Positions 5,742-37,204 of a DNA stretch of 38,075 nt are shown one piece after another. Location: the NCBI GenBank assembly GCA_028689615.1, contig JAQVCV010000011.1:1-38075 (forward strand), in the 5' to 3' direction. Within the stretch, counting starts at the first letter, position 1. Every line of letters starts with the position of its first letter. The notes beneath the pieces are model-generated. The model was not told the DNA's origin, did not search any database, and saw only the letters and a list, made by a program, of their open reading frames with translations. Source of the stretch: Bacteroidales bacterium (GTDB taxonomy: Bacteria; Bacteroidota; Bacteroidia; Bacteroidales; TTA-H9). The position numbers were made by a program, and so were the translations under genes.

Positions 5742-5778
5742 ATGGATTGATTTTTTTGGATTTGTGATTTATTGTTTG

Positions 5779-6716: not shown

Positions 6717-6739
6717 CTGTTTTTTTCAATAGTTTTGTT

Positions 6740-9381: not shown

Positions 9382-9389
9382 TATCTTTG
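9382..9389 (+). promoter_or_regulatory. Possible -7 box for the MazG-like gene
   Basis: TATCTTTG fits TAnnTTTG exactly. Transcription would begin within a few bases of the ATG at 9401, so the second ATG at 9407 could be the real start. No convincing -33 element is present. Confidence 0.35.
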
Positions 9390-9400
9390 CCGAAAATTAA

Positions 9401-9739: not shown

Positions 9740-9974
9740 TGGTGCACACCCTGTGTTCGGAATTGAACAATTGTTCGGGGCAATGGCCCTCTTTTTTTCC
9801 GATTTCTGAACAAATTTGTTTGCCATTATCCTTGCGAGAGTGGTAGTGTTTATTCCCTAACTGTTTGTTTTAAAAAACGTAGGCCAGCCAGGGTAGTGTG
9901 TCAGTTGTTTCATTTTCCCGATTTTTGTAGCTTGCACTGTTTTTGTAATTGATCGAACCTTTAATTTTTCTACT

Positions 9975-11453: not shown

Positions 11454-11473
11454 TTCTTGAAATAATCATTAAA

Positions 11474-12205: not shown

Positions 12206-12235
12206 TTTGTTCCATATTTTTTAAAAATAATTTTG
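12206..12235 (+). promoter_or_regulatory. Probable promoter for the DUF5686 gene
   Basis: TTTG at 12206-12209 and TAATTTTG at 12228-12235 are 18 bases apart, close to the Bacteroidota -33/-7 arrangement. The ATG at 12304 would have a leader of about 60 bases. The site supports a separate unit from the ABC genes that end at 12205. Confidence 0.5.
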
Positions 12236-12303
12236 TAAAGGTGGCAGTTGGTTCAGTTCATAATCGACCGCCACCTTTGTTTCCGTTTAGTTTCTTCAAC
12301 TCT

Positions 12304-19021: not shown

Positions 19022-21673
19022 TTATTTTTTTGTGATAACCCTACTCATGGATTTTACTCCGTCAGAAATCCGTAAAAAATAGGTTCCTGCAGAAAAACCG
19101 CTCATATCAATCGTAATAGAACCATTTATAAGTAATCCACTCAACAAGGCCTGGCCTGTTGAGTTGACCAGAATAAAATGATAGTCGGACTTTCCTTGCA
19201 TGTATAGGTATTCGGTTACCGGATTTGGATAAACCCTCATGGAGGTTTCAGGTGATTCAATGCCGTCGAGGATCACTGTTACAACACCACTAATGTTGGC
19301 ACTACCATCCCAGAAACCACCTCCTGTTTCAGAATAGCCGCCATACACGTACTCGCCCGACTGGTACTTAAACCGGCTGGCATAGAAATAGGTTCCGGGA
19401 ACGGTAAACTGGGAGCCGAGGTTAACTTCGAATTCATCGTTATTGCCAACAGGTTGCTTGTAATCCGCAACAAACCAGTTGCTCCAAGTTGAGGGATCGG
19501 TGTTTTGTGTGCTTATACCAATCCAACACTCCAGGCCGGGTGTCTGAACTGACTGGCCTGTTATACCATCAATCCAGGCTTGTGCATACACTTTATATTC
19601 GTCACCAACAGCAATGTTACCTGTGTCGGGCCACTGAAGGTTTACCCAGTTGATTGGAATTGTAGGAGTTGTAGCCACTAACACACCGCTAACGTTATTG
19701 AATCCATCCCAAAAGCCTCCGCCGGAAGGTGACCAGCCACCGTAAATAAAATCGCCGTTATTGTAACGATAACGCATGGCATAATAGTAGGTTCCATCGG
19801 AGAGGATATCAGCACCCAGGTTGCCATAGAATTCATCATTACTCCCGGCAATACCGTTGTAACCAGCTACTATCCAGTTCGTCCATGTGTCAGGGTCGGT
19901 GTTATCGGTGCTGTAGCCAATCCAGGCTTCGAGTCCCGGTGTTTGAGAGCCCGTGCCTGTAAGTCCATCAATCCAAGCCTGGCCGTAAACAAAGAGCTGT
20001 TGGCCGGGGGCTATTGACGCGTTTTCAGGTGATTGGAGGTTAGCCCAACTAATTACTGCAGGCGGTGGTGTTAGAACTGTCACCACGCCACTAATGTTGG
20101 TGGTACCATCCCAAAATCCTCCACCGGTGGTGCTATAACCACCATACACATATCCATTAGTGAGATATTGGTAGCGATAAGCGTAATAGTACGTTCCTAC
20201 GGATGAAAGTTGACTGCCTAAATTGGCCTGAAATTCATCGTTATTGCCAACAGCAACATTGTAATCAGCCAGAAACCAATTTGTCCATGTTGCAGGATCT
20301 GTATCAGAAGTATTGTAACCAATCCATGCGGTCAAACCTGAAGAGGCCGTCCCCTGGCCTGTGACGCCATCTATCCACGCCTGGCCGTAAACCATCATAT
20401 CCTGCTGAGGGGCAATGGAACCGGTAGCAGGCGATTGCAGGTTACACCAACCCACATCAGGGTTGGCGACGGTAAGTTCACCGCTGATGTTTGTTGTCCC
20501 ATCCCAGAATCCCCCCCCAGAAGCGGAGTAGCCCCCATACACATAACTGCCTGTTCCTAGTTTGAAACGGCTTGCATAGTAATAGGTTCCCTCGGTAGTT
20601 ATTTGCGAACCCAGATCAGCCATGAATTCATCGTTGTTGCCTGCAATGCCATAATAGGGAGCCGCGATCCAGTTGGTCCATGTGTTTGGGTTGGTGTTGG
20701 TTGTACTGTAACCAATCCATGCCTGAAGTCCGGCCGCGGGAGAAGGCTGACCGGTTATACCAGGGATCAGTGCCCGGGCATATACATTGAAGGGTGACGA
20801 CGGGGCAATAGTGCCACTGGCCGGTGCCTGTAGGTTTACCCAACTCAGGGTTGGATCGCCTACTGCATAGGTATAATTAGCTCCGTTGTTGTTGTTCACC
20901 CGAATGGAATACATATCATGGTTGGACGTAATCCCGCTAACTGTAGATGTGAATACTTTATAGGATACGGCTGTTCCATTGACCTGACCGGGTATTTGAG
21001 CAGTGCCTGTTGCTCCTGTCATCGTAACTACCACCAATGAAGAGGTCGTCCATCCATTGGTGGTATAGTGTAGGTAAACAATCTCTTCGGCACATTTGGC
21101 TGATGAAAGGGTGACATTGATGGTGGCAGGGGTGCCGGTATTAACCTGCGAGGGGCCGCTGACCGTTGAAATATTCACAGGCTCGGCACTGGTTTCCATG
21201 AAAATAGCATCGGTATCCGTATAATTATTATCCTTCCAATTCATCGTGTACCATTTACCATCAACAACCGTTATTGTATTGTCGGCCCCTTCTTTGGTGT
21301 AGAGCTGAAGAGTGTTCATGGTTACCGTGATGCTTCCCCACTTGTTTCCCCATGGACTGGCTGTCGGGCCACTGGTGAACAGCCAGTTATAGGTTCCTCC
21401 AACTACATCACCGCCAGTAGCGGCAACACTGAAAATGGTTTGCCAACGTGTGGTTCCCGTGGTGATCTTCGTCACCCGTCCATTCGTTACCTGGGTGCTT
21501 GATGCCAATGCAAGGTTGTTAACCGGAGGGTTTGTCCAACCATTCCAGACTCCTGGCAGGTTGAGGCCCTCGGGTTCATAAATCTGCGCTGTCGTCGGGA
21601 AGGGCGACACGAACAGAATCATAACCACCAAGCCTGCAATGAGAGAGAAATAAAACGTGTTTTTAGCCTTCAT
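19022..21673 (-). CDS. Non-catalytic four-module secreted protein with T9SS type A domain
   Basis: The 883-residue protein has a signal peptide (~1-30). An N-terminal domain (~31-165) carries PEGLNLPGVWNGWTNPP and KWYTMNWKDN. An Ig-like domain (~166-272) follows. Four tandem ~130-residue modules lie at about 277-403, 406-535, 541-668 and 673-801. Each has the pattern NLQxPxxGxI, then AWIGYSTxNTDPxTWTNW, GNNDEF, GTYYYAxRF, YVYGGY and GGGFWDGT. The last ~70 residues (YPNPVTEYLYMQGK to RVITKK) are a T9SS type A sorting domain. No hydrolase motif is present. It is the last gene of the operon headed by the GH13 amylase and shares modules with it, so a polysaccharide-binding or scaffold role is inferred. 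Confidence 0.82.
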   Translation of the reverse strand: MKAKNTFYFSLIAGLVVMILFVSPFPTTAQIYEPEGLNLPGVWNGWTNPPVNNLALASSTQVTNGRVTKITTGTTRWQTIFSVAATGGDVVGGTYNWLFTSGPTASPWGNKWGSITVTMNTLQLYTKEGADNTITVVDGKWYTMNWKDNNYTDTDAIFMETSAEPVNISTVSGPSQVNTGTPATINVTLSSAKCAEEIVYLHYTTNGWTTSSLVVVTMTGATGTAQIPGQVNGTAVSYKVFTSTVSGITSNHDMYSIRVNNNNGANYTYAVGDPTLSWVNLQAPASGTIAPSSPFNVYARALIPGITGQPSPAAGLQAWIGYSTTNTNPNTWTNWIAAPYYGIAGNNDEFMADLGSQITTEGTYYYASRFKLGTGSYVYGGYSASGGGFWDGTTNISGELTVANPDVGWCNLQSPATGSIAPQQDMMVYGQAWIDGVTGQGTASSGLTAWIGYNTSDTDPATWTNWFLADYNVAVGNNDEFQANLGSQLSSVGTYYYAYRYQYLTNGYVYGGYSTTGGGFWDGTTNISGVVTVLTPPPAVISWANLQSPENASIAPGQQLFVYGQAWIDGLTGTGSQTPGLEAWIGYSTDNTDPDTWTNWIVAGYNGIAGSNDEFYGNLGADILSDGTYYYAMRYRYNNGDFIYGGWSPSGGGFWDGFNNVSGVLVATTPTIPINWVNLQWPDTGNIAVGDEYKVYAQAWIDGITGQSVQTPGLECWIGISTQNTDPSTWSNWFVADYKQPVGNNDEFEVNLGSQFTVPGTYFYASRFKYQSGEYVYGGYSETGGGFWDGSANISGVVTVILDGIESPETSMRVYPNPVTEYLYMQGKSDYHFILVNSTGQALLSGLLINGSITIDMSGFSAGTYFLRISDGVKSMSRVITKK
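19271..20845 (-). repeat. Four tandem copies of the shared ~130-residue module (third operon gene)
   Basis: The copies lie at about 20845-20465, 20458-20069, 20053-19670 and 19657-19271. Boundaries are set at the NLQ start and the SGxLTV end and are good to a few residues. Confidence 0.85.
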
Positions 21674-21737
21674 TTTGTTATTATTATAAGCATTTAATCC
21701 AATAAAACATATTTGTATTTAATGAGGGAGGCAGCTC

Positions 21738-24700
21738 TTATTCGGGAATCATTCTGGTTATCTGTATGGCAGCGTTGTTATCCATAATAATCATATCCAA
21801 TCCGTCGGCAGTTCCGTCGCCATTCAAATCAACAGTGTTGTAACCCTTGGCAAACAACTCTACTTCATTGTTTAGCAGCACCATATCGGCATTATTGATG
21901 TATCCGTCGGAATTTAGATCTCCCGAATAGATTAAGTAGTAGCTGTCACCTGATGTCTTCAGATTCGAGCCAAAAACATTGGCCGGATTGGAGTATGAAT
22001 GGCTGATAGTGGCTGTAGCAAACGAGACAGGCAATGCTGATGTGGTTTCCAAAATATTTCGTCCTTTGATGGTCAGATAATATTGCCCTGAATTCTCACC
22101 TGGAATGGAAACAGAAATATTACCTGTGGTTGAAAGGTTAACATTGCCCACGGAATAGATAATGATATCATAGTCGGAAGCATCGTGCAATTCAATTGTA
22201 ACCTGATCGGCAATTCCAGCTTCGAATTGGGCTCCACTTAAGCTTTGCGCCTGGTTCATGGTGCCCGCTTCAGAATATAGACCCTCTATGAATACATCAT
22301 TGATATTTAGTATTTTGTCATTGGTTACTGTAAGTAAACCGGAGATATAGCTGGTTCCATCCCACAAACCTCCACCCGATTCAGAGTAACCCCCGTAAAC
22401 ATAATCACCTGTATTAAGCTGAAAACGGGTTGCATAGTAATAGGTTCCGGTTGCAGGTAGTAGCACCCCTATATCGGCCAGATACTCATCATTATTGTTA
22501 TTATCGGCGTTGTAAGTAGCTACAACCCAGTTTGTCCATCCTGATGGATCGGTATTGGTACTGCTTAAACCTACCCAGGCCTGAATTCCTGCACCCTGTC
22601 CGGCACCAGTCGTGATACCGTCAGCGAATACCTGTCCGTAAACGTTATAGGATTGCAATGGCTGTATGGTACCCGATGCGGGATACTGTAAATTTGCCCA
22701 TGAAATTTCAGGCTCTGGCAAATCCTTTACGATTAATTCGCCGCTGATATTGGTAGTTCCATTCCAAAAGCCACCCTGAAAGCCGCCATATACGTAGTCC
22801 TGATCATTCAGTTTAAACCTTGATGCATAATAAAAAGTATCTTCTACGCTCATCAAAGCTCCAAGATTCAGCCTGAATTCATCGTTATTGCCAGATTCGC
22901 CGAAATAGTCAGCCACAATCCAATTCGTCCAAGTTGCCGGATCATCATTTTCAGTATTGTAGCCAATCCACGCCTGAAGGCCGGTTCCCTGACCTGCTCC
23001 GGGTGTTATATCCTCAACGTAGGCTTGGGCATACACGAAGAACTCCTGGTTGGGCTCGATCTGACCACTACCAGGCCATTGTAAATTAGCCCAGTTTATA
23101 GAAGGTGGTGCCTCTTCAGTAACTGTTACAGTCCAGATTTTATCAATCTCACTCTCACTGGTAACGGTATATTGAACCGGGCTTGAAAAATCCATGGTAA
23201 CGCCGCTTTCAGGGTCAATTTTGGCTCCTTCGGAAATAGTAATCGTCGGTGTAAGGCTCGACAAATTTGTTCCAATAGCTACCTCAATTGCCACAGTGGC
23301 ATCTGCACTGTTGATAACTGCTGGTGAAGCCTGCTCAGGTAGTGTAAACGTCAGTATTTCAGCTTCATTGCTCCGTTCGGCAATGGTGAAAGTTCCTGAA
23401 AATGGCCCATCGGTGGTATCTCCTGGAACTCCCGTTCCCGCTACTGAAAAATTGATTTTAAGATAATAATCACCTGGAATTAACCCATCTGCAATGGCAA
23501 TCACGTCGCCAAAGGAGGCCCAGGTCTGGTTTCCATCTCCATCGTTGCTGGTCCAGTTCACATTTCTGATCGTATAGGCTGTCGGCTCAACATCACCAGT
23601 TGCCCAAACCTTATAATGAAATCTGGTTCCTGTTACATCTCCTGAACCTGACTTCCATGTCTTTATTGACGAACCTTTGATATTCAAGCTACTTATCTCA
23701 CCAAGAGCTTTGCCTTCGAATTCAGCCCCTTTTTCGGTGATATCAGCAGGCTGCCCGCTATACCAGTACGTAAAGGTAGGTAGAAGGATTCCTCCGTCAT
23801 CTCTCAGTCCGTAGTTTGGTAGCGGAGGATCAGCAACAGTAACAGTAACTGTCCATGTTTTCGTAGTAGTGCCATCCTGAGCTGTAACTAAATAGGTTAC
23901 AGGGCTTGAAAAGTCGCGGGTAACACCACTTGCAGGATCAATAATAGCTCCAATGGAGACAGTAATTGAGGGGGTAAGCGAGGCTACATTGGTTCCAAAA
24001 GCCACTTCAATTTCTACTGTAGCGTCAAGGCTCGTAATAGTGGCTGCTCCGGTTTGCTCTGGAAAAGTAAAGGTAAGAATCTCAGCCTCGCTGCTCAACC
24101 CGTTGGTAGTGTATGAATAGTAAGCCTCGCTATTGTTGTTGATTTTAATCGAAAACATGTCATATTCGGAAACCGGACTCGCCACGGTGGTGCTAAAGAC
24201 ATAATATTTAACCACAGCACCGGGAAGTTGACCGGGAATAGTGGCTGATCCGGAATTTCCAGTCATTGAAACAGCAGCAATCTGAGAGGTAGTGAAATTA
24301 TTGGTTGAATACAATACATAAAACAATTCTTCGGCGCAGGGTGCCGACGAAGTGGTGATAGTGATTGTGGCAGGTGAATTGGCTGCCACATTTACAGGGA
24401 CTGTCACATCGGTGATGTTTACAGGTGCTGCAGATGTCTCCATGAAAATAGCCTGAGTACCGGTATATCCATTATCTTTCCAGTTCATAGTGTACCATTT
24501 CCCGTTCACCACAGTGATACTATTATTCGGGCCATTATTCCATGTGTAACTCTGAAGAGTATTCATCGTGACAGTTGTGCCTGCCCACTTGTTTCCCCAA
24601 GGACTACCGGTTGAACCGCTTGTAAAAAGCCATTCATAGGTGCCTCCTACAATATTCCCTCCGGAAGCAGCCACCTGAAGGATAGTTTGCCAGCGATGGG

Positions 24701-24932
24701 TTCCTGTTGATATCTTGGTTACCAGTCCGCCGGTAACCTGTGTATAACTGGCCAGGGCAAGATTGGTTGGAGGGTTCGTCCATCCATTCCATGCTCCTGG
24801 CATGTTTAATCCCTCCGGTTCCCATATGTCAGCCTTTACCTCGAATGAGGCCAGGATGAATATTGAAACCGAAAGAACCGGCATTGCTTTCTTTAGTAAA
24901 GCGGAAAAGGAGAGTAATAGCGTTTTTCTCAT
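21738..24932 (-). CDS. Non-catalytic multi-module secreted protein with dockerin-like C-terminus
   Basis: The 1,064-residue protein has a signal peptide (~1-34), then the same N-terminal (36-170) and Ig-like (170-280) domains as its neighbours. Two copies of a DUF5018-like domain (281-368 and 521-607; EAEILTFTFPEQ and EAEILTFTLPEQ) flank a different ~145-residue insert (373-518). Two of the ~130-residue shared modules follow (612-737 and 742-872). The end (875-1064) is a GLYS...QF..GIAD domain closing with two calcium-loop motifs, GDLNSDGYINNADMV and DLNGDGTADGLDMI, as in dockerins. No T9SS type A domain follows. The gene sits 35 bases after the amylase gene and 64 bases before the third gene, with no terminator between. 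Confidence 0.8.
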   Translation of the reverse strand: MRKTLLLSFSALLKKAMPVLSVSIFILASFEVKADIWEPEGLNMPGAWNGWTNPPTNLALASYTQVTGGLVTKISTGTHRWQTILQVAASGGNIVGGTYEWLFTSGSTGSPWGNKWAGTTVTMNTLQSYTWNNGPNNSITVVNGKWYTMNWKDNGYTGTQAIFMETSAAPVNITDVTVPVNVAANSPATITITTSSAPCAEELFYVLYSTNNFTTSQIAAVSMTGNSGSATIPGQLPGAVVKYYVFSTTVASPVSEYDMFSIKINNNSEAYYSYTTNGLSSEAEILTFTFPEQTGAATITSLDATVEIEVAFGTNVASLTPSITVSIGAIIDPASGVTRDFSSPVTYLVTAQDGTTTKTWTVTVTVADPPLPNYGLRDDGGILLPTFTYWYSGQPADITEKGAEFEGKALGEISSLNIKGSSIKTWKSGSGDVTGTRFHYKVWATGDVEPTAYTIRNVNWTSNDGDGNQTWASFGDVIAIADGLIPGDYYLKINFSVAGTGVPGDTTDGPFSGTFTIAERSNEAEILTFTLPEQASPAVINSADATVAIEVAIGTNLSSLTPTITISEGAKIDPESGVTMDFSSPVQYTVTSESEIDKIWTVTVTEEAPPSINWANLQWPGSGQIEPNQEFFVYAQAYVEDITPGAGQGTGLQAWIGYNTENDDPATWTNWIVADYFGESGNNDEFRLNLGALMSVEDTFYYASRFKLNDQDYVYGGFQGGFWNGTTNISGELIVKDLPEPEISWANLQYPASGTIQPLQSYNVYGQVFADGITTGAGQGAGIQAWVGLSSTNTDPSGWTNWVVATYNADNNNNDEYLADIGVLLPATGTYYYATRFQLNTGDYVYGGYSESGGGLWDGTSYISGLLTVTNDKILNINDVFIEGLYSEAGTMNQAQSLSGAQFEAGIADQVTIELHDASDYDIIIYSVGNVNLSTTGNISVSIPGENSGQYYLTIKGRNILETTSALPVSFATATISHSYSNPANVFGSNLKTSGDSYYLIYSGDLNSDGYINNADMVLLNNEVELFAKGYNTVDLNGDGTADGLDMIIMDNNAAIQITRMIPE
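22317..23099 (-). repeat. Two tandem copies of the shared module (second operon gene)
   Basis: The copies lie at about 23099-22722 and 22709-22317. The first lacks the usual SxxGGG before FWNGT and reads GGFQGGFWNGT instead. Confidence 0.8.
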
Positions 24933-24967
24933 ATTGCAAAAAGTGTTAATAGTTAACCATTATTATT

Positions 24968-27900
24968 CTACGGAATGATTTTAATACGGTTTTGTGAGGC
25001 ATTGTTATCAATAACGATAATGTCGAGAGCATCGGTCATGCCATCTCCATTAATATCGGAGGAGTAGTAGCCCCGGTTGAAAAGTTGAGCCTGTGAAGTT
25101 ACAATTTCTATATCCACATTGTCAACTATTCCATCCTGATTAACATCGCCGGCAAAAATGAAATAATAACCATCTGTTGCTGCCCCCATATTGCTACCGT
25201 AAGCTTTGTTTGGTATATCGAATGAGTAGTTAATCTGTGAGGTGGAAAATGAAACAGGCAATGCACTTGATATTTCAAGACTATTACGATGTTTAATCCC
25301 AATATAATAGCTTTGGCTGTATTGACCTGGAACGGTTGTGGTAATTACACCTGAAGTTGAGAGAGGGACATTGGGAATGGTATGTATAATTGTCTGGTAT
25401 TCATTTTGATCGTGTAGTTCCACATTTACAACATCAGCAATGCCGGCATCAAATTGTGGGGTAGATCCATTAAAAGCCTGCCGAAGCAGGCCACCTCCTG
25501 AATACAATCCTTCGGGGAATACAGAACTAATAGTGAGTGTTTTCGTAGATGCGGTGACCTGAAGATTTCCTGAAATATTGGTCGTTCCATTCCAGAAACC
25601 TCCGCCTCCTGCTGAGTATCCTCCGTAGTAGTACGATCCATTGTTGAGCTTAAACCTGAAAGCATAATAATAAGTTCCTTCGGTGGACAGTTGGCTGCCC
25701 AGATTGGCTTCAAATTCATCGCTACCTGCCGCCGGTCCTGTGTAAGTAGCAGGAATCCATAATGACCAGGTACTTGGATGGGTATTCAACGTGCTGTATC
25801 CAGCCCAGGCTTGTAGTCCGGGTGTTTGTGATGCCTGACCTGTAAGGTTGGAAACCAACACCCTGCTTGTGATGATGAATTCTTCCGAGGTACTGACAGA
25901 ACCTGATCCTGGATTGTACAAATTTGCCCAGTTAATGACCGTGGTGGGATTAATGGTCAATGTTCCGTTGAGGTAGGTTGCCCCATCCCAGAATCCTCCT
26001 CCGGAGGATGAATAACCACCATAAACATATTCGCCTGTCTTGTATTGAAACCTGCTAGCATAATATACGGTTCCGCCGCCAGGCAAATGAGCCCCTATAT
26101 TGGCAACGTACTCATCGTTGTTGTTGATGTCCGTATTGTATGAGGCTGGTATCCATGTTGTCCAGGTTGAGGGATTGGTGTTGGTTGTGCTAAAACCTAT
26201 CCAGGCCTGCAGACCAGTTGTAGCTCCTGCCGAGGCAGTTTTATCGGACATAAATACCCTTGAATAAACATTGAAATCTTGCCCAAAAGTGATTGTAGAT
26301 GAACCGGGGTGTTGCAGGTTAGCCCAGTCAATTGTAGGTAATCCAACCTCTAGGGTTCCGGAAGTATGGGTTGTCCCATTCCAAAAACCACCAGTACTTG
26401 AGGAGTAACCCCCATAAGCATATGTACTGTTACCTTTCCTAAACCGGCTTGCAAAGTAGTAGGTTCCAGTTGATGTGATAGATGATCCTATGTCAGCTTT
26501 GTATTCATCGTTATTTCCAACTGCTTGATGATAGGTTGCCGGAATCCAGTTAATCCATGTAGAAGGATTAGTATTGGTGAGACTATATCCTATCCAAGCT
26601 TCAATGGTTGTGTCGGGTGCAACCTGAGTGGTAACTCCGTCAATCCAAACCTGAGCATAAACCATAAATTCATCCTCAGGTTCAATAGCCCCAGATGAAG
26701 GATATTGCAGATTCACCCACCCGTCTGACGGATCCCAGCCGGGCTGCAGAAGAATAGTAAGGTTGGTGGTCCCCGAAACTGTGGTTGTTTCGGAATTGGC
26801 GATATAACCAAACTTGGAGGCTGTTACTTCCACGGTTTTTGGCAATGATAGGAAGGAAGCAGTTCCGTCAGATGCTGTAGTCCGGTGTCCTGCATTGCTT
26901 AGAAGCAAATCTGCACTTTCAATCGGACTGGAACTCGTTTCGTCAAGAACACTTATATTCAGATCATGAAAAGGTTTTGGCATAGGTTGGCTTGTAAATA
27001 CTTTGTAGTCGCCTGGACCGTAGAAGAAGAAATGACCGCCCGGATCGCTTACATAAAAAGATTCACCAGTGAAGTAGTCATACCAAGTACCTGTCTTTGT
27101 GAATCCAGGGGTCATATCAAAACCACTTACCCCCATATTAACCGTTACAATCACATCCATACTGTTGTGTGTAATCCACATTTTCTTACCTGACAGACCC
27201 AGTTCGTGGTAAAAGTTGCCATACCGGAAGGCATCAGTCTTTCGAAGGGTAGCCATTGCAGAAAAAACTCTGTTAAGCCTTTCTCTCCCAGGAACATCAA
27301 GGTAATCCCAACGTGGAGGTTTGCTGGCCGTACGACCACCCCCGTAGAAAATGCTGTAATCATAGCCCAATTCCTGAAACTGATAAAGCATTTTTGGTCC
27401 GGGAATTCCCATAAACAACACGGCAGCCTGTTCCTGATGGTGCAGAGCATTCCCAAACCATTTGATGTCATACATCGGGTTATTGGAATTTCCATTTGTG
27501 AGGGCTTCTGACATCATACGTTCCTCATCATGTGTTTCCATGTAATCCACTAAATTAGGATAGCTCCACCCCCGGCTACCATGAAAGGCCCAGGAAACAT
27601 TGGAGTTATTCTCCCAGCCCATAGCCACCTGTTTGTAGTTGCCATGCATCGCACTCCAAAGCAGAAACCCAGAGTTGGCCAGCACGGTTTCCTCGCTGTT
27701 ATCGGCGAAATGTTCGAGAATAACATAGGCATTTGGATTAACCCACTTGATATGAGCTTTATAGTCGTTTAGAATGTTGATACGACTTTGATCATATGCA
27801 TTCCATGCACCAATATCACCCCCTGAATAATTCTGGGTGAGACCTTTAGATAAGTCAATTCTAAAACCATCAATTTTGAATTCAGTTAACCAGTATTGAA

Positions 27901-30900
27901 ACACATCTTTAAAAAACTGTCGTGTGTGACCGCTTTCATGGTTAAAATCATACCCGACACTAAAACCGTGCGGCGATTGCTGGTTAAGCCAGGGATTGTG
28001 TTCTGAGGGCTGGTTGGCCGATGAATTGAAGTACATTTGTGCCATGGGATTCAACCCAAAAGTGTGATTTGGCACTATGTCGAGAATTATTGCAATCCCT
28101 TTTTGATGGGCAGCATCAATAAATGCTTTTATTGCATTTTCAGTTCCGTAATATTTGTCTGTGGCAAAAAAGAAATTGGTGGAGTACCCCCAGCTTTCGT
28201 TTCCATCAAACTCAGCAATTGGCATGAGCTCAATAGCATTCACCCCTAATTCCTGCAAATAGTCAAGTTTCTGCTGAACATCCTCAATCCATCTTGATTC
28301 AACAAAGTCTCTTATTAACAACTCATAAATTACCAAGTCTGATTGAGCATTGTTGATAGCAGGCGGTGTAAAACTTGTTACCTGCCAATTATAGGCTGGT
28401 TTTGCCGTTTGAAGTACACTTACAACCCCATCTGTGGCTCCTGAAGGATAGGGTTTTAGATCAGGATAATTTGTTGAGGAAATCCATTGATCATTCCATG
28501 GATCAAGAACTTTTCTCGAATAGGCATCAGCAAGTTTTTGCTCACCATCAATATAGTATTGAAAGGCATATTCTACTCCAGCAGTAAGCCCGGTCAACGT
28601 AGTCCAATACCTTTTCCCATCCGGGGTGCGCCTCATATAGTATTCATCACTGATCTCCCAGTTGTTGAACTCACCGATTACGTAAACAAATTGTTTAAAT
28701 CCTGTCGGGTCGTGGAGCACAAGGGTTACTGTTGAGTCATTTATATAGTTGATTCCGTTTTGAACCCCACCAGGAAGATCAGCAATGGTCACTGAGCCTC
28801 GAAGGTAAACTTCTATTGAATCGCGTGCCTGATTGACCCCGTCGGAAGCAACGGCTTTAATCCAGTTTTGCCCTGACTGCAGTTGTGCCATAATGAGCAT
28901 ATAAGACAATTCGCTGTCACTGTTTTCGGCAATCAGCGTGTTATTAGCATATAATGCAAGATCTGAGTGCCCTCTTGCCGTTATACAGACAGGGAAGCTA
29001 GTATTGGAATTTAAAACTGTTTGTTTTTCTGTAGGATTATTAAACCTAACATTTACCCCCTCATCCACGATTGCTACGGCCAAATCGGATCCATCAGTAT
29101 CGCGATGTTCCAGGTAACTTCCATTTGACTGGACAACATCACTTCGAAACACGAACACCATTTTCTGAATGATTTCACTTGCCGGAACTCCATAATATGA
29201 ACGAGGTGTATTAATAGTCAGGCTATACAGATTAGCCGATTCCCTGGTAAGCTTGGTTGAAGGAGTGTTTACACCCCAACCTGTCTTTGTATAGCGCCAA
29301 TCGTTGGAGTTGGCACTCAGGTTTGTTAAGACTCCGGTATGTGCATATACATCGCCTTCATAGTTTAGCAACGCTCCGTTTCCTTTGGATGCATCGAAGT
29401 AGATTGTAACACCTTCATCGTCTTTGGGCATTGCAGGCTCAGAATAACATGCACTTAGATATTGTGAGCAATAAATATCAATACCAACCGTTAACGACCC
29501 GTTTACATTGGTAGTTCCATCCCAGAAACCGCCACCACCAGTCGAGTAGCCTCCATATACAAAATCCTGGTCATAAATCTTATAGCGTGTGGCATAATAA
29601 TAGGAACCTTCAGCAGTAATACTTGTTCCGATATTAGCAGAATACTCATCATTATTTCCCTGTGAACCGTTATAACTGGCTTCAATCCAATCAGTCCATG
29701 TTTCGGGATTGGAATTGTCAGGGCTATACCCCACCCATACCTGCATTGTTGGAAAAGAAGTGGAACTGCCGGTTCGTCCTTCAATATAAACCTGTCCATA
29801 AACGGTGAAGGGCTGTCCCGGCTCAATCGTATTGCTGGCAGGGAACTGTAAGTTTGCCCAGTTTATTACCGGAGTCGAAATCGTCAATACACCACTTACG
29901 TTGTCGGTCCCGTTCCAGAATCCACCTGTAGTAACGTTATATCCACCATAAACATAATCATCAGACAGGTATTTATATCGGAAAGTGTAATAGTAGGTGC
30001 CATCGGTGTTAAGATAATTACTCAGATCGGCCATAAATTCATCGTTATTACCAGAAGCTCCGTGGTACTCTGTCGGAGTCCAGTTGGTCCATGTAGCTGG
30101 ATCTGAATTGGCTGAACTGTAACCAACCCAGGCCTGCAAGCCTGGAGTAGCCGATCCCTGTCCTGTTAATCCATCTATCCATGCTTGCCCGTAAACCAAA
30201 TAATTTTGCTGTGGAGCTATAGCTCCACTTCCGGGGTGTTGAAGGTTACACCAACCTATATCAGGCGTGGAAATGGTTAACACACCATTTTCATTTATTG
30301 TTCCATCCCAGAATCCCCCCCCAGAAGCGGAGTAGCCCCCATACACATAACTGCCTGTTCCCAGTTTGAAACGGCTTGCATAGTAATAGGTTCCCTCGGT
30401 AGCTATTTGTGAACCCAGATCAGCCATGAATTCATCGTTGTTGCCAGCGATTCCATAATACGGGGCTGCGATCCAGTTGGTCCATGTGTTTGGGTTGGTG
30501 TTGGTTGTACTGTAACCAATCCATGCCTGAAGTCCGGCAGCGGGGGTTGCCTGTCCGGTAAGCCCGGGGATCAAAGCCTGGGCAAACACATTGTAAGGTG
30601 ATGATGGAGCAATGGTTCCACTCGCGGGCGCTTGAAGGTTTGCCCAGGAAATCACCGGATCGCCTACTGCATAGGTGTAATTCGATCCGCCATTGTTGTT
30701 TAGTTTTATGGTGTACAAATCGTAGTCACCAGTAATGCTTGCAACAGTGGATGAAAATACATAATAGGAAACACCAGTTCCGTTGGGTTGCCCTGGTATT
30801 TGAGCAGTTCCGTTCGTTCCTGTAAAGGAAGCAACCACCAGTGATGAATTGGTCCATCCGTTTGTTGTGTAGCGAAGATAAACAATCTCTTCAGCTGATT

Positions 30901-31489
30901 TTGCAGCCGAAAGTGTTATGGTGATTGTGGCCGGAGTGTTAGAGTTCACTGTTGCCGGACTTGTTACATTCGAAATGTTCACAGGTTGAGCACTGGTTTC
31001 CATGAATATAGCCTGTGCGTCAGCATAGCCATTGTCTTTCCAGTTCATGGTGTACCATTTCCCGTTTGTCAGTGTAATGTTGTTGTCGGCGCCTGTGTTG
31101 TATGTGTAATTTTGTAATGTATTGATGGTTACTGTGGCGCCTGCCCATTTATTAGCAAACGCATTTGATGTTGGACCACTGGTAAATAGCCAGTTGTAGT
31201 TCCCTCCAGCGATATCGCCGCCAGTTGCAGCTACACTGAAAATGGTTTGCCAACGAGTAATCCCGCTAGCAATTTTTGTCACCCTTCCATTAGTGACTTG
31301 TGTTGCGCTAGCTAAAGCAAGGTTGTCGGAGGGCGGGTTTGTCCAACCATTCCATGCACCTGGCAAGTTGAGGCCTTCGGCTTGAAAAATTTGACCATGT
31401 GCTCCCATCCAATTGAGAGTCAAAAAAAGAGTTAATAATTTGATTAACAAGTTTTTGCCATGAATATTAAAGATCGAAATTATACCCAT
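24968..31489 (-). CDS. Giant secreted GH13 alpha-amylase-family glycoside hydrolase
   Basis: The start at 31489 (MGIISIFNIHGKNLLIKLLT) gives a signal peptide; the longer frame to 31567 would run through the promoter. The product has 2,173 residues. In order: the shared N-terminal and Ig-like domains (~33-277), three shared modules (280-408, 410-540, 542-669), an amylase N-domain with VYAHTGVLTN (~687-810), and a CBM48-like domain (YVIGEFNNW, ~917-1005). The GH13 barrel (~1052-1414) has DIVPNH, GFRIDLSKG (nucleophile Asp1212), VILEHFAD (acid Glu1259) and METHDEER (Asp1321). A beta-sandwich, a carboxypeptidase-like domain (~1509-1584), three more shared modules (1590-1717, 1720-1849, 1852-1979) and a dockerin-like end (GDVNQDGIVDNVD, DINGDGMTDALD) follow. 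It should act on alpha-1,4-glucans outside the cell. Exact specificity is not readable. Confidence 0.92.
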   Translation of the reverse strand: MGIISIFNIHGKNLLIKLLTLFLTLNWMGAHGQIFQAEGLNLPGAWNGWTNPPSDNLALASATQVTNGRVTKIASGITRWQTIFSVAATGGDIAGGNYNWLFTSGPTSNAFANKWAGATVTINTLQNYTYNTGADNNITLTNGKWYTMNWKDNGYADAQAIFMETSAQPVNISNVTSPATVNSNTPATITITLSAAKSAEEIVYLRYTTNGWTNSSLVVASFTGTNGTAQIPGQPNGTGVSYYVFSSTVASITGDYDLYTIKLNNNGGSNYTYAVGDPVISWANLQAPASGTIAPSSPYNVFAQALIPGLTGQATPAAGLQAWIGYSTTNTNPNTWTNWIAAPYYGIAGNNDEFMADLGSQIATEGTYYYASRFKLGTGSYVYGGYSASGGGFWDGTINENGVLTISTPDIGWCNLQHPGSGAIAPQQNYLVYGQAWIDGLTGQGSATPGLQAWVGYSSANSDPATWTNWTPTEYHGASGNNDEFMADLSNYLNTDGTYYYTFRYKYLSDDYVYGGYNVTTGGFWNGTDNVSGVLTISTPVINWANLQFPASNTIEPGQPFTVYGQVYIEGRTGSSTSFPTMQVWVGYSPDNSNPETWTDWIEASYNGSQGNNDEYSANIGTSITAEGSYYYATRYKIYDQDFVYGGYSTGGGGFWDGTTNVNGSLTVGIDIYCSQYLSACYSEPAMPKDDEGVTIYFDASKGNGALLNYEGDVYAHTGVLTNLSANSNDWRYTKTGWGVNTPSTKLTRESANLYSLTINTPRSYYGVPASEIIQKMVFVFRSDVVQSNGSYLEHRDTDGSDLAVAIVDEGVNVRFNNPTEKQTVLNSNTSFPVCITARGHSDLALYANNTLIAENSDSELSYMLIMAQLQSGQNWIKAVASDGVNQARDSIEVYLRGSVTIADLPGGVQNGINYINDSTVTLVLHDPTGFKQFVYVIGEFNNWEISDEYYMRRTPDGKRYWTTLTGLTAGVEYAFQYYIDGEQKLADAYSRKVLDPWNDQWISSTNYPDLKPYPSGATDGVVSVLQTAKPAYNWQVTSFTPPAINNAQSDLVIYELLIRDFVESRWIEDVQQKLDYLQELGVNAIELMPIAEFDGNESWGYSTNFFFATDKYYGTENAIKAFIDAAHQKGIAIILDIVPNHTFGLNPMAQMYFNSSANQPSEHNPWLNQQSPHGFSVGYDFNHESGHTRQFFKDVFQYWLTEFKIDGFRIDLSKGLTQNYSGGDIGAWNAYDQSRINILNDYKAHIKWVNPNAYVILEHFADNSEETVLANSGFLLWSAMHGNYKQVAMGWENNSNVSWAFHGSRGWSYPNLVDYMETHDEERMMSEALTNGNSNNPMYDIKWFGNALHHQEQAAVLFMGIPGPKMLYQFQELGYDYSIFYGGGRTASKPPRWDYLDVPGRERLNRVFSAMATLRKTDAFRYGNFYHELGLSGKKMWITHNSMDVIVTVNMGVSGFDMTPGFTKTGTWYDYFTGESFYVSDPGGHFFFYGPGDYKVFTSQPMPKPFHDLNISVLDETSSSPIESADLLLSNAGHRTTASDGTASFLSLPKTVEVTASKFGYIANSETTTVSGTTNLTILLQPGWDPSDGWVNLQYPSSGAIEPEDEFMVYAQVWIDGVTTQVAPDTTIEAWIGYSLTNTNPSTWINWIPATYHQAVGNNDEYKADIGSSITSTGTYYFASRFRKGNSTYAYGGYSSSTGGFWNGTTHTSGTLEVGLPTIDWANLQHPGSSTITFGQDFNVYSRVFMSDKTASAGATTGLQAWIGFSTTNTNPSTWTTWIPASYNTDINNNDEYVANIGAHLPGGGTVYYASRFQYKTGEYVYGGYSSSGGGFWDGATYLNGTLTINPTTVINWANLYNPGSGSVSTSEEFIITSRVLVSNLTGQASQTPGLQAWAGYSTLNTHPSTWSLWIPATYTGPAAGSDEFEANLGSQLSTEGTYYYAFRFKLNNGSYYYGGYSAGGGGFWNGTTNISGNLQVTASTKTLTISSVFPEGLYSGGGLLRQAFNGSTPQFDAGIADVVNVELHDQNEYQTIIHTIPNVPLSTSGVITTTVPGQYSQSYYIGIKHRNSLEISSALPVSFSTSQINYSFDIPNKAYGSNMGAATDGYYFIFAGDVNQDGIVDNVDIEIVTSQAQLFNRGYYSSDINGDGMTDALDIIVIDNNASQNRIKIIP
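25553..26722 (-). repeat. Three shared modules after the GH13 domain
   Basis: The copies lie at about 26722-26339, 26332-25943 and 25936-25553, each from the NL[QY]xPxSG start to the last beta strand. Confidence 0.82.
29483..30652 (-). repeat. Three shared modules before the GH13 domain
   Basis: The copies lie at about 30652-30266, 30262-29870 and 29866-29483. The first is almost identical at DNA level to the first module of the 19022-21673 gene. Confidence 0.85.
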
Positions 31490-31539
31490 ACGTGCTTGTT
31501 TATTAATTGATTGAGCGCGTCTATAACAATTTGCCGCCC

Positions 31540-31575
31540 CAAATATAAGAGCAAAAAAAAAGTGCAAACGTTTGC
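31540..31575 (-). promoter_or_regulatory. Amylase operon promoter with overlapping LacI-type operator
   Basis: The minus strand has TATATTTG (31547-31540), an exact TAnnTTTG -7 box. GCAAACGTTTGC at 31564-31575 is a perfect 12-bp palindrome with the CG centre typical of LacI/PurR-family operators. The TTTG inside it (31568-31565) lies 17 bases before the -7 box, where the -33 element should be. A bound repressor would cover the promoter. The start codon is about 50 bases further on. No LacI-family gene is in the window. Confidence 0.68.
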
Positions 31576-31590: not shown

Positions 31591-31631
31591 AAAAAAAAGT
31601 CCATAAGATTCAAAATCTTATGGACTTTTTA
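31591..31631 (-). terminator. Terminator after porX
   Basis: A 17-bp perfect inverted repeat (31594-31610 with 31614-31630; core AGTCCATAAGATT) has T-runs on the minus strand, 15 bases past the porX stop. It separates porX from the amylase operon promoter. Confidence 0.9.
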
Positions 31632-31645: not shown

Positions 31646-33202
31646 TTACTTGGCTGTCAGAATTACCGAGGGTATCAGAACCTCTTCGAGCGAGATTCCC
31701 CCGTGCTGGAAGGTGTTTCGGTAATAATTTGCATAGTAATTGAAGTTGTTGGGATAGGCAAAAAAGTCGTTGTTGCGCGTGAATATGATGCTTGAACTTA
31801 AATTTTGCCGTGGTAGCAGAATTTCTGCGGGATCGCGGAACGCGAAGACTTCTTTTTTGTTGAAATTGAGGTTTTTTCCTGTTTTAAACCTCAGGTTGGT
31901 GTTGGTTTGTTTGTCACCAACAACTTTAACGGGTGTTTGTACTCTGATGCTGCCATGATCGGTGGTTAACAAGATGCTGGCTTTTTTAGCAGCCACAAAT
32001 CGAATGATTTCCAGCAGTGGTGAGTGTTCAAACCAGCTTCGAGTGAGCGAGCGGTAGGCTGGTTCGTCGTCGGCCAATTCGCGAATGATTTCCATCTCGG
32101 TTCGGGCATGGCTGAGCATGTCAACAAAGTTGTAAACAATGACGTTCAGTTTGTTGTCCATCATATTTGGCAGGTTATCTACCAGTTTTCGGCCAACATT
32201 CAGGTTCAACACTTTCGTGAAACTGTACCTAACATCTTTGCCATAGCGTTTCAGCATTTCGCCAAACAGTTCCCCCTCAAACTGGTTTTTGGTCCCTTCG
32301 TCCCATTCCTGTATCCAGTATTGGGGGTACTTCTTTTCAATCTCGAGGGGCATCAGTCCCGAAAAGAGGGCATTGCGTGCAAATTGCGTAACCGTTGGCA
32401 GGATGCTGTAGTAGAGATCATCGTTTTCAACTTTAAAATACTCTTCAATCAGCGGTTGAATGGTTTTCCATTGGTCGTAGCGCAGATTATCGATCAGGAT
32501 AACGAATACCGGTTCAGGATTTTGCAGCATCGGGAAAAGTTTTTCGCGAAGCATTGTGTGCGACATGAGTGGCTTGTCTTCGGTTTTGTTCCAAATCCAG
32601 TCAGTATAATTTCGTTCAACGAATCTCGAAAAAACAACGTTAGCCTCCTCTTTCTGCATGTTGAGAATTTGGATCATGCTTTCATCTCCCGAATGGTTGA
32701 GCTTTATTTCCCAGTCAACCAGTTTTTTGTAAATGCTCTTCCACTCTTCGGCTTTCAGGTTGTTCGAAATTTCCATTCCCAGGTTTCTGAACTCCTGCTG
32801 GTAGGTGAAACTGGTTTTCTGACTAACCAGTTCTTTGGTCTCCAGATTTTTTTTAAGTGAGAGAAGAAGTTGCTGGGGTTTAACGGGTTTTATCAGGTAA
32901 TCGCTGATGTTGGAGCCAATGGCGTCTTCCATGATGGTTTCTTCTTCGCTTTTGGTGATCATCACCACGGGCAAGCGAGGATGAAGGTTTTTTATGAGTT
33001 GAAGGGTTTCCAAACCGCTTAATCCGGGCATGTTTTCATCCAGAAAAACGATGTCGTAATCGTTCTCTTTAATCATATCAAGGGCTTCATCGCCGTTGTT
33101 CGATGTGTCAACTGCGTATCCTTTTTGTTCCAAAAAAATGATGTGAGCCTTGAGCATATCTATCTCATCATCGGCCCAGAGTATTTTAATTTTGTTTTCC
33201 AT
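31646..33202 (-). CDS. porX: PorX-type response regulator with PglZ/alkaline-phosphatase-like domain
   Basis: PorX is the response regulator linked to control of the T9SS. The 518 residues start with a receiver domain (~4-122): acidic pocket DDE at 11-13, phosphorylated Asp55 in FLDENMPG, Thr in MITKSEEE, and Lys in YLIKPVKP. Helical linkers follow, then an alkaline-phosphatase superfamily (PglZ-like) domain with VILIDNLRYDQW and ILLTTDHGSIRVQTP. This receiver plus PglZ combination and the length match PorX. The sensor partner PorY is not in the window. The gene lies just upstream of the secreted amylase operon, on the same strand but separated by a terminator. Confidence 0.92.
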   Translation of the reverse strand: MENKIKILWADDEIDMLKAHIIFLEQKGYAVDTSNNGDEALDMIKENDYDIVFLDENMPGLSGLETLQLIKNLHPRLPVVMITKSEEETIMEDAIGSNISDYLIKPVKPQQLLLSLKKNLETKELVSQKTSFTYQQEFRNLGMEISNNLKAEEWKSIYKKLVDWEIKLNHSGDESMIQILNMQKEEANVVFSRFVERNYTDWIWNKTEDKPLMSHTMLREKLFPMLQNPEPVFVILIDNLRYDQWKTIQPLIEEYFKVENDDLYYSILPTVTQFARNALFSGLMPLEIEKKYPQYWIQEWDEGTKNQFEGELFGEMLKRYGKDVRYSFTKVLNLNVGRKLVDNLPNMMDNKLNVIVYNFVDMLSHARTEMEIIRELADDEPAYRSLTRSWFEHSPLLEIIRFVAAKKASILLTTDHGSIRVQTPVKVVGDKQTNTNLRFKTGKNLNFNKKEVFAFRDPAEILLPRQNLSSSIIFTRNNDFFAYPNNFNYYANYYRNTFQHGGISLEEVLIPSVILTAK

Positions 33203-33427
33203 GTCTGAAGGGTTTAATGAACCTGTATTGCTGAATCAATTGTTATCGGGCGACGAACTTCTATAAAAAATGCGATGCGCTACAGGGCGGAAATGATGAG
33301 GTTACCCATCTGCATAAGCCTTTTACGCACATTTTTCTATGAGAGGAACTTCATGATCAGTTATTGAAGAAACGAACAGGCAGGGGATAAAGTATTTGAA
33401 TGAAGAGTTAAAGATAGTTAGGAAAAT

Positions 33428-33462
33428 GAAAAGCGCCCCGTCATGAATATGAGGAGCGCTTC
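33428..33462 (-). terminator. Terminator after lpxA
   Basis: AAGCGCCCC (33431-33439) pairs with GGAGCGCTT (33453-33461), with one G-T pair, and is followed by a T-rich stretch on the minus strand. The rest of 33203-33482 shows no gene. Confidence 0.7.
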
Positions 33463-33482
33463 TAATGGTGTCTTTTTTTTGA

Positions 33483-34274
33483 TTAGTCTTTAATTCCTCG
33501 CCCGAGTCCTTTCATGATTCCCCTGCTTGAAGCATCAATAAATCGAAGAATCTCATCACGTTCGGAGGTTGCTGGTACATCAGCTTCGATTAGTGTAACA
33601 GCTTGGCTTACGTTAAGACCCTTCAGGTATATGATGCGATAAACATCCTGAATAAGGCTGATTTGTTCGCTGGTAAAGCCACGTCGGCGCAGACCAATGG
33701 AATTGATGCCAACGTAAGAGAGGGGCTCGCGGGCAGCTTTGGTGTAGGGTGGCACGTCTTTTCGAACCAGCGATCCTCCGCTTATCATGGTATGAGCACC
33801 AATTTTGCAAAACTGATGAACAGCAGTAAGCCCACCAACAATAGCCCAGTCGTCGATGGTGATGTGGCCGGCAAGGGTAGCTCCGTTGGCCAGGATGACG
33901 TTGTTTCCAACAATGCAGTCGTGAGCCACGTGCACGTAGGCCATCAGCAGGCAATTGCTGCCAACAATGGTTTCATAACTAGCTTTTGTGCCGCGGTTTA
34001 TGGTTACGAATTCACGAATGGTGGTGTTGTCGCCAATTTTTACCAGGGTGTCTTCCCCGTTGAATTTAAGGTCTTGTGGAACAGCAGACACAACGGCACC
34101 TGGGAATATCTTGCAGTTTTTGCCAATTCTGGCTCCTTCCATGATGGTTACGTTCGATCCTATCCAGGTTCCTTCTCCGATTTCAACGTTTTTTTCGATA
34201 TTTACGAATGGTTCAATAACCACATTTTTAGCTACTTTGGCCTGTGGGTGAACATAAGCAAGAGGTTGGTTCAT
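33483..34274 (-). CDS. lpxA: UDP-N-acetylglucosamine acyltransferase
   Basis: LpxA adds the first 3-hydroxyacyl chain to UDP-GlcNAc, the first step of lipid A synthesis, in the cytoplasm as a trimer. The 263-residue length is usual. The first ~180 residues are a left-handed beta-helix of hexapeptide repeats (IGEGTWIGSNVTIMEGARIG). The active-site region reads AYVHVAHDCIVGN, with His118 as the expected catalytic base. VHQFCKIGAHTMISGGS and KDVPPYTKA are LpxA signatures. It starts 19 bases after the lpxC/fabZ stop, so it is the last gene of an lpxD-lpxC/fabZ-lpxA run. Confidence 0.95.
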   Translation of the reverse strand: MNQPLAYVHPQAKVAKNVVIEPFVNIEKNVEIGEGTWIGSNVTIMEGARIGKNCKIFPGAVVSAVPQDLKFNGEDTLVKIGDNTTIREFVTINRGTKASYETIVGSNCLLMAYVHVAHDCIVGNNVILANGATLAGHITIDDWAIVGGLTAVHQFCKIGAHTMISGGSLVRKDVPPYTKAAREPLSYVGINSIGLRRRGFTSEQISLIQDVYRIIYLKGLNVSQAVTLIEADVPATSERDEILRFIDASSRGIMKGLGRGIKD

Positions 34275-34293
34275 GCGTGATTTTTTGAGTGGA

Positions 34294-35703
34294 TTACTTT
34301 GCTACTTCAGCGGGTTTTCGTGCAATTTGAGCCAGCATTTCGGCTTCCATCACAACTTTATCGCCAACAAAGGCCTGTCCGGCCATGTGGCACAGTCCGC
34401 GTCGAATGGGTGACAATAGTTTCAGGCTGAAAATCAGGGTGTCGCCCGGAACAACTTTTTGCCGAAACCTTACATTGTCAATTTTCATGAAAAAAGTAAG
34501 GTAGTTCTCTGGATCAGGTACGCTGCTTAAAATGAGGATACCTCCTGTCTGGGCCATCGCTTCAATTTGCAAAACGCCTGGCATTACAGGCTCATCAGGG
34601 AAATGCCCGTTGAAGAAAGTTTCGTTCATCGTTACGTTTTTGATCCCGATTACATGTTCGGCATCCATATCGAGTATCTTATCTACGAGAAGGAAAGGCG
34701 GGCGGTGGGGCAGGAGGCGCTTGATGGCGTTGATGTCAAAAAGGGGAGGTTTGTTTGGGTCGTATTGCGGAATACCTGCCATTTTTTTTTCGTTGCGAAT
34801 CTGCTCCCTGATCATCTTGGCAAAGGCTATATTGGAAGCGTGTCCGGGGCGTGTGGCAATGATATGACCTCTGATTCTGACTCCAAGTAATGAAAGATCG
34901 CCAATCACATCCAGCAGTTTATGGCGGGCCGGTTCGTTGATCTGATTGAGCTCTATGTTGTTGAGTATTCCTTCTTTCAATACTTCAACCCGCGGTTTGT
35001 TGAAGAAAGCCGAAAGACGATCAAGCTCGTCCTGCCCAATGAGCCTGTTAACAAATACGATAGCGTTGTTCAGATCACCACCTTTGATAAGGTTGTTGCT
35101 GATCAAATATTCCATTTCATGCAGAAAGACAAAGGTGCGGCTGTTGGCGATTTCGTTTCTGAAATCGTCGATATGATCAAGAGCAGCATGTTGAGTGTCG
35201 AGCACCTTCGACTCGTAGTCAATCATTACCGAGTAACGCAGTTCGGGGGAGGGGATGGCAATGATCTCAACCTTTTTGTCCTGGTTTCTAAAAACAATGT
35301 TTTGAGTGAGTTCGTAATATTCTCTTTCTGCGTTTTGCTCAACGATTCCTGCTTTGTCAAGAGTTTCAACCCAAAACCGGCTGCTTCCATCTAAAATAGG
35401 CAACTCAACACCGGTAGTTTCTATAATCAGGTTATCAATGCCTAACCCAAAAACAGCAGCAAGCAAATGTTCGGTTGTGCTGATTCTGACATCGTTTTTA
35501 ACCAGGTTGGTCCCCCGTTCGGTGTCTTTAACGTAATCAATGTCGGCCTCAATTACCGGTGACCCCTCTAAGTCGGTTCTTACAAATTTATATCCATGAT
35601 TTTCTGGTGCAGGACGAAACGTTACTGTAACGTGCTGACCAGTATGAAGGCCAGTACCCGATATGGATACAACCTCGCGTATAGTTCTCTGTTTTTCGCT
35701 CAT
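34294..35703 (-). CDS. lpxC/fabZ: Bifunctional LpxC deacetylase / FabZ dehydratase
   Basis: LpxC performs the committed deacetylation in lipid A synthesis; FabZ dehydrates 3-hydroxyacyl-ACP in fatty-acid synthesis. Their fusion is common in Bacteroidota. The start at 35703 (MSEKQRTIREVVSISGTGLH) matches the LpxC N-terminus; a further 12 codons upstream look unrelated. LpxC zinc ligands are His79 (TEHLLAA), His261 and Asp265 (RHKLLDVIGD), with His288 (RPGHASN) near the active site. FabZ begins ~325 with INAIKRLLPHRPPFLLVD, and has catalytic His367 (NGHFPDEPVMPGV) and Glu381 (IEAMAQTGG). The length is 469 residues. Both halves look intact. Confidence 0.95.
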   Translation of the reverse strand: MSEKQRTIREVVSISGTGLHTGQHVTVTFRPAPENHGYKFVRTDLEGSPVIEADIDYVKDTERGTNLVKNDVRISTTEHLLAAVFGLGIDNLIIETTGVELPILDGSSRFWVETLDKAGIVEQNAEREYYELTQNIVFRNQDKKVEIIAIPSPELRYSVMIDYESKVLDTQHAALDHIDDFRNEIANSRTFVFLHEMEYLISNNLIKGGDLNNAIVFVNRLIGQDELDRLSAFFNKPRVEVLKEGILNNIELNQINEPARHKLLDVIGDLSLLGVRIRGHIIATRPGHASNIAFAKMIREQIRNEKKMAGIPQYDPNKPPLFDINAIKRLLPHRPPFLLVDKILDMDAEHVIGIKNVTMNETFFNGHFPDEPVMPGVLQIEAMAQTGGILILSSVPDPENYLTFFMKIDNVRFRQKVVPGDTLIFSLKLLSPIRRGLCHMAGQAFVGDKVVMEAEMLAQIARKPAEVAK

Positions 35704-35796
35704 AATCAATCGGCAAAGGTAAGAATTATTTGCATTCATACTCGTTCCATCTCCGCAGTGGGTTTGGTGGATTGTATGGAATGTTTTTACAAGTAA

Positions 35797-36834: not shown

Positions 36835-37204
36835 CTGTTCCGGTATCAAAATTTGCGGGTGCAAGTTTACGAATAATTTCAAGGCAACAGTTCGTTTTTA
36901 TGTACTTTACTGTTGGTGTGGGGACGTTGTATTTCCTGAATGGTTGGCTGCGACTTTGGTCGCCGGACGATTTGAATGCGGAAGGTGAAGACTTACATCG
37001 GATAACATGGGTTTGTGGAGAGGGTTGTTTTTGTTTTCGATACAAGCTAAAGGTTCGTTTAGCATGACTAGAAATAATCTGGATTTATTAATACCGATCG
37101 ATCCGGACTTTAACAGACTGATTTAATGATTTATGGAGTTCGTATCCGTGAATAAGTTTATTAGTTATAACCCTTCTTTATTGCCAGAGAAAATCAACTT
37201 TTTG
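36835..37204. other. About 370 bp with no gene seen
   Basis: This stretch lies upstream of lpxD and downstream of the tRNA/GIY-YIG region. Open frames here have no coding character. It should contain the lpxD promoter, but no strong TAnnTTTG match was found. Confidence 0.5.

Follow-up and report, generated by a model that had tools for sequence, protein, structure and literature searches.

Accounts of starch capture by Bacteroidota usually centre on SusC to SusG of the starch utilization system (Sus). The extracellular Sus amylase of Bacteroides ovatus (BoGH13A_Sus, structure 8DL2) is described as a member of subfamily GH13_47 with an N-terminal CBM98 that binds maltooligosaccharides and a CBM48 (PMC11633381), and subfamily 47 amylases are described as tolerating alpha-1,6 links (PMC11239784). 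Flavobacterium johnsoniae is described as secreting amylases through the type IX secretion system (T9SS; PMC11885536), and starch proteins of Ruminococcus bromii as assembling into a dockerin/cohesin complex, the amylosome (PMC9112005). Here we describe three genes, A, B and C, in a 38,075-nucleotide stretch of DNA (contig JAQVCV010000011.1 of the Bacteroidales assembly GCA_028689615.1), hereafter the window, that encode a predicted amylase related to BoGH13A_Sus and two companions without a catalytic domain.

These genes are a real, recurrent starch-linked set with an unusual enzyme. The reading we prefer, with modest confidence, is that A is a predicted secreted alpha-amylase, that the enzyme-free B and C likely hold alpha-glucan next to it, and that the cut products are imported by a SusC/SusD pair encoded elsewhere in the genome. 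The glucan would be bound by the CBM98-like and CBM48-like domains of A and by an N-terminal domain plus immunoglobulin (Ig)-like domain common to all three proteins (together N-Ig), while twelve copies of a module of about 130 residues would mainly act as Ig-like spacers or contact domains reaching out from the cell. C would be anchored through the T9SS, and A and B may take a separate route by means of a dockerin-like C-terminal tail (the X-dockerin tail) used in place of a T9SS tail.

A predicted amylase with two enzyme-free companions

The three genes are minus-strand neighbours with intergenic gaps of 35 and 64 bases (Table 1). Gene A encodes, in order, a signal sequence, N-Ig, three modules, a CBM98-like stretch, an Ig-like domain, a CBM48-like domain, the GH13 barrel, three further modules and the X-dockerin tail. 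A sequence-only reading of this DNA had described three adjacent minus-strand genes with twelve modules, common N-terminal and Ig-like domains, a GH13 domain in one gene only and three modules on either side of its barrel, and our analysis agrees on each point: the modules number six in A, two in B and four in C, with positions in A given by the module profile, and the N-Ig pairs share 70% (A-C) and 63% (A-B) DNA identity and score 416-428 bits to one profile.

The starch assignment comes from the enzyme core rather than the modules, because A matches solved amylases and carries a CBM98-like stretch. PF00128 is found in A (88.9 bits) and in neither companion, and the four conserved GH13 regions of A read DIVPNH, GFRIDLSKG, VILEHFAD and METHDEE, within which we take the catalytic Asp, Glu and Asp to lie. 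Outside the modules, the nearest solved structures are 8xx9, named 'alpha-amylase' (531 bits), and 8dge/8dl2 (363 bits), with the next other GH13 at 103 bits. The score to 8dge/8dl2 places A with GH13_47 by similarity, and we infer that 8xx9 is the GH13_47 enzyme of R. marinus. The resemblance to CBM98 is confined to one stretch of A.

The pairing with amylase genes follows N-Ig

Module, N-Ig, barrel and tail were scored in 72 loci of named genomes, which derive from the 80 best-ranked among 288 candidate stretches. GH13 was sought by a profile of this amylase group only (above 100 bits), and a locus counted as testable if it showed a barrel or extended 4 kb or more downstream. GH13 accompanies 21 of the 29 testable module loci with N-Ig (21 of 34 in all), versus 1 of 21 without N-Ig (1 of 38 in all; Fisher p 1.4e-6); counted by genome, the figures are 20/28 and 1/35. 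Where N-Ig and GH13 occur together, the start of the amylase frame follows the companion within 1.8 kb in 17 of the 21 loci. The tie to amylase genes follows N-Ig and not the module, and the enzyme with its enzyme-free companions is a recurrent gene arrangement. The claim of the sequence-only reading that the companions hold substrate or enzyme gains from the recurrent pairing, although this pairing tracks N-Ig rather than the module.

N-Ig loci are also the closer kin of the window, so the contrast is partly one of kinship, and because of this confounding a second draw, independent of the module, was made across 395 genomes of the phylum. Some N-Ig match occurs in 37 of these and a full-length one in 13 besides the window's genome; of the 12 genomes that could be judged, 6 have a GH13 within 10 kb of full-length N-Ig. 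One protein of this draw (locus L193) joins N-Ig to CBM20 and CBM53, each scoring above its cut-off. In its locus (7136-13700) the adjoining amylase bears Alpha-amy_C_pro and a single module, a case of the same domains paired with a second type of amylase. Among the 120 matches listed for homologs of the C module region, 97 have an AMPK/CBM48-like domain and 91 both this domain and N-Ig. The AMPK-like domain adds to the link with starch; its match is weak (18.9 bits, where Pfam requires 26.8; E 0.0029 against a pullulanase), and it was not seen in the window's protein C.

A recurrent module with a predicted Ig-like fold

The twelve modules align without large gaps, with 22 invariant columns and pairwise identities of 45-87%. 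A profile built from them matches all twelve at E ≤ 1.6e-58, which is circular; free of that circularity, it recovers the module from 32 further genomes among the 395. One more copy in the window's genome belongs to a fibronectin-type protein of 2396 residues encoded on contig C84. The first modules of A and C present a separate observation: they are 84% identical in DNA, reaching 85-97% over about 300 bases, in surroundings of 62-77%. Because the identity between the two genes is patchy around this module, it looks like the product of recent gene conversion.

The sequence-only reading proposed that the modules bind the glucan or each other. We regard it as unlikely that the module itself binds alpha-glucan, as a new CBM family whose twelve copies provide avidity for starch. 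The profile search suggested in that reading was run and returned no match in Pfam or NCBIfam and chance-level rows among PDB sequences (best E 0.089 with 12 copies, 0.44 with 79); we therefore rejected the idea that the module is an already named domain. For protein C as a whole, the T9SS tail was the sole match among PDB sequences. The predicted module fold is a common Ig-like/E-set arrangement, which is compatible with CBM-like domains, is not specific for them and singles out no named starch-binding CBM; on this model the module is a general Ig-like fold. The module is common in glycosidase-free proteins: it is present in lamin-tail and endonuclease proteins, and no glycosidase is among the 25 families listed, out of 26, for 28 of the 51 module frames without N-Ig. 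Aromatic columns were counted without the 21 copies that lie in GH13 loci but in frames lacking N-Ig; amylase-linked and unlinked copies showed no column whose frequency shifted by more than 0.3, and an aromatic signature peculiar to the amylase-linked modules was rejected on this ground. Glucan binding by the modules was thus not borne out.

Starch-holding proteins or general adhesins

Several points weigh against the reading preferred here. Beyond the kinship already mentioned, the 72 loci are a selection of the best-ranked stretches scored with a GH13 profile of one amylase group. In the phylum draw, four of the six positive genomes come from one family, one has its GH13 on the opposite strand, and the other 6 of the 12 have no nearby GH13 among the GH13 matches listed, which are the strongest ones. 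N-Ig also adjoins Calx-beta proteins. The fold comparison for N-Ig gave rows that cover the Ig half only, leaving the N-terminal half without a fold match of its own, and the signal sequences of A, B and C were read by eye. A comparison of the N-Ig sequence with the PDB gave no credible match.

Some of these points fit a different account, in which the proteins are general adhesins: starch use by A-C would be incidental, the companions would attach to each other or to different surface glycans, and N-Ig would not be starch-specific. Three genomes of one family have N-Ig and no nearby GH13 among the GH13 matches listed, and in the two of these three that were scanned the Calx-beta neighbours of N-Ig are T9SS proteins. 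Against such a general role stand the repeated association with this group's amylase genes and the starch-binding domains fused to or neighbouring N-Ig, and we consider it quite improbable. 

A dockerin-like tail in place of the T9SS tail

Pfam and NCBIfam scans found no T9SS C-terminal sorting domain in A or B. Both proteins end instead in a dockerin-like domain of about 186 residues in which both calcium loops can be read. The profile of this X-dockerin tail matches in 53 of the 395 phylum genomes, often weakly. It is the last domain in all 63 proteins (63/63), ending 0-24 residues from the C-terminus, and among the matches listed a T9SS tail appears in none of the 62 other X-dockerin proteins and an S8 peptidase domain in 17 of them. 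A T9SS domain is listed, with the same limit to listed matches, for 111 of 120 module proteins.

We compared the tails of 20 of 23 amylase frames (leaving out L074, L077 and L085): 15 carry a T9SS tail (E ≤ 0.01), four an X-dockerin tail, and the remaining one breaks off where its contig ends. A tree of 27 barrels places the four dockerin-tailed amylases (those of the window, L059, L062 and L066) in one clade, with support of 100/99, among T9SS-tailed ones. Each of the four has modules before and after its barrel, and the other amylase frames have none. Since the dockerin-tailed, module-bearing amylases form a single nested clade, it would be simplest to suppose that modules entered the enzyme and its tail changed on one line of descent. 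This history is weakened by the midpoint rooting of the tree, in which long branches outside the dockerin-tail clade were flagged. The L066 relative (5563-10972) is split over two overlapping frames.

That the X-dockerin tail always comes last and never occurs together with a T9SS tail among the proteins listed would suit a rival address label, and would also suit any C-terminal domain of proteins kept elsewhere. A bolder version, which we put forward tentatively and think doubtful, is that the tail is a second Bacteroidota C-terminal address label that replaces the T9SS sorting domain and itself delivers or fixes proteins at the outer surface, the amylase having swapped labels once while taking up its companions' Ig-like modules. 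A literature search, judged by titles and the starts of abstracts, found no work on this tail. Excerpts of PMC3534657 and PMC6247017 describe cellulase genes or cellulolytic machineries without dockerins and scaffoldins, and an excerpt of PMC5831590 a genome without cohesins and dockerins. On contig C84 of the window's genome (17975-18772), a 265-aa protein with the X-dockerin tail at its end adjoins two Peptidase_S74 chaperone proteins. A genome sometimes encodes related amylases with either kind of tail, as L059 with L061 and the window with contig C70, which provides a clean pair for asking about a surface-targeting tail other than that of the T9SS.

Alternatively, the dockerins of A and B could plug into cohesins of a surface scaffold, much as in Ruminococcus bromii. 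In the genome search, Dockerin_1 exceeds its cut-off of 22.9 bits in A (23.1) and B (26.6), and contig C101 encodes three cohesins over cut-off, one of them in an 802-aa protein with CBM48 and CBM53 matches and a T9SS tail. The dockerin match is borderline, however, falling just short in whole-protein scans (A 20.5, B 22.0 bits; 22.6 for the A tail by itself). Cohesin matches (E ≤ 0.001) do not track the tail, with 12, 17 and 1 in the three dockerin-tail genomes versus 0 to 27 in the 16 others, and a cohesin partner identified by co-occurrence was rejected for this reason. The five cohesin matches of the window's genome are spread one apiece over five frames, and a different dockerin protein inside the C101 cluster is the likelier partner. 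We consider an amylosome-like assembly of A and B quite improbable. The C101 region (L142, 3832-17608) comprises a TonB receptor, cohesin-domain proteins, the 802-aa protein and a 1016-aa dockerin protein, and is possibly a surface cohesin-dockerin set.

Relation to a Sus-type importer

Among the scanned window proteins, which are a part of all those encoded in the window, none matches SusC or SusD over cut-off, and a whole-genome search found no SusD on the window's contig and two elsewhere. Contig C70 encodes, side by side, a SusC (799 bits), a SusD, a LacI regulator and a T9SS-tailed GH13 similar to A (636 bits to the group profile). This SusD scores over cut-off with PF07980, and its 405 bits to NCBI's SusD model fall short of the exception cut-off of that model (725). 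The sequence-only reading was right that the window's scanned proteins include no SusC/SusD pair, although the genome has one; its proposal of a T9SS-based alternative to Sus did not hold, given the importer and T9SS-tailed amylase on C70 and the lack of a T9SS tail in A and B. Because SusC/SusD and a similar amylase occur together on C70, we infer that the A-C operon is more likely an outer arm feeding a Sus-type importer than a replacement for it. By eye, no cysteine marks the end of the signal sequence in A, B or C, as would be expected of lipoproteins.

Gene boundaries and neighbouring genes

The gene A reading frame spans 24968-31567, or 2199 aa if translation starts at the TTG. The ATG at 31489 is the likelier start, because a promoter-like site precedes it. 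The motif of this site, TTTG-N-TANNTTTG, which we take to be a promoter signal, has 3 matches in the window versus 1.85 expected by chance; its number is not above chance, and its place is what supports it. Upstream of A lies porX, the gene for a T9SS response regulator, which on the same strand comes immediately after lpxD, lpxC/fabZ and lpxA, genes for lipid A (31646-36882). A, B and C are likely a transcription unit of their own, because the promoter-like site and a terminator-like hairpin separate porX from A; the hairpin is missing from the list of a consensus scan.

Table 1. Features of the A-C gene set and its flanks (window positions).
Feature	Position	Strand	Basis or remark
Gene A, secreted GH13 alpha-amylase (predicted)	24968..31489	-	open reading frame (ORF) extends back to a TTG at 31567
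Gene B, companion without catalytic domain	21738..24932	-	1064 aa ORF
Gene C, companion without catalytic domain, T9SS tail	19022..21673	-	883 aa ORF
A N-Ig	30662..31393	-	profile; model pLDDT (predicted local distance difference test) 96 for homologous C region
A module 1	30269..30658	-	alignment + profile
A module 2	29876..30265	-	alignment + profile
A module 3	29483..29872	-	alignment + profile
A stretch matching CBM98 part of BoGH13A_Sus	29144..29440	-	28.6 bits, E 1e-5 to 8dge/8dl1 residues 33-123
A CBM48-like domain	28523..28687	-	AMPK1_CBM 17.1 bits, below cut-off 26.8; inside 8dge alignment
A GH13 catalytic barrel	27359..28279	-	motifs at 28064-28081, 27842-27868, 27701-27724, 27521-27541
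A module 4	26345..26728	-	alignment + profile
A module 5	25949..26338	-	alignment + profile
A module 6	25553..25939	-	alignment + profile
A X-dockerin C-terminal tail	24971..25528	-	about 120 residues, then two dockerin calcium loops
B N-Ig	24105..24830	-	profile
B best of two DUF5018 stretches	23796..24128	-	PF16410 78.9 bits for whole protein
B module 1	22725..23105	-	alignment + profile
B module 2	22323..22712	-	alignment + profile
B X-dockerin C-terminal tail	21744..22298	-	profile
C N-Ig	20858..21586	-	profile
C module 1	20465..20854	-	profile; 84% DNA identity to A module 1
C module 2	20072..20461	-	alignment + profile
C module 3	19670..20056	-	alignment + profile; predicted fold
C module 4	19271..19657	-	alignment + profile
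C T9SS type A sorting domain	19037..19234	-	33.8 bits versus cut-off 27; TIGR04183 31.8 versus 23
Promoter-like site TTTG-N-TANNTTTG upstream of A	31540..31568	-	place only
Terminator-like hairpin between porX and A	31591..31630	-	-19.2 kcal/mol, z -8.1

Comparison with known systems

A shares its core with BoGH13A_Sus, whose CBM98-CBM48-GH13 order recurs in the CBM98-like stretch, CBM48-like domain and barrel of A. BoGH13A_Sus is described as a surface lipoprotein of the Sus locus (PMC11633381), whereas in A no lipobox cysteine is seen by eye; A also contains N-Ig, six modules and the dockerin-like tail, and is encoded apart from SusC/SusD. The F. johnsoniae enzymes are likewise extracellular amylases of a T9SS bacterium; unlike them, and unlike 15 of the 20 amylases compared here, A has no T9SS tail. 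The dockerin-like tails of A and B recall the R. bromii amylosome, but no matched cohesin scaffold was found for them here and the tail is different.

The companions also invite comparison with SusE and SusF, enzyme-free proteins beside an amylase that presumably hold glucan. Unlike these, A-C are not lipoproteins by eye, do not stand beside SusC/SusD and consist of N-Ig together with Ig-like modules. An amylase of the same type is thus seen with a different set of companions, recurring in many metagenome-derived Bacteroidales genomes, and these companions are candidates for a new kind of starch-holding protein.
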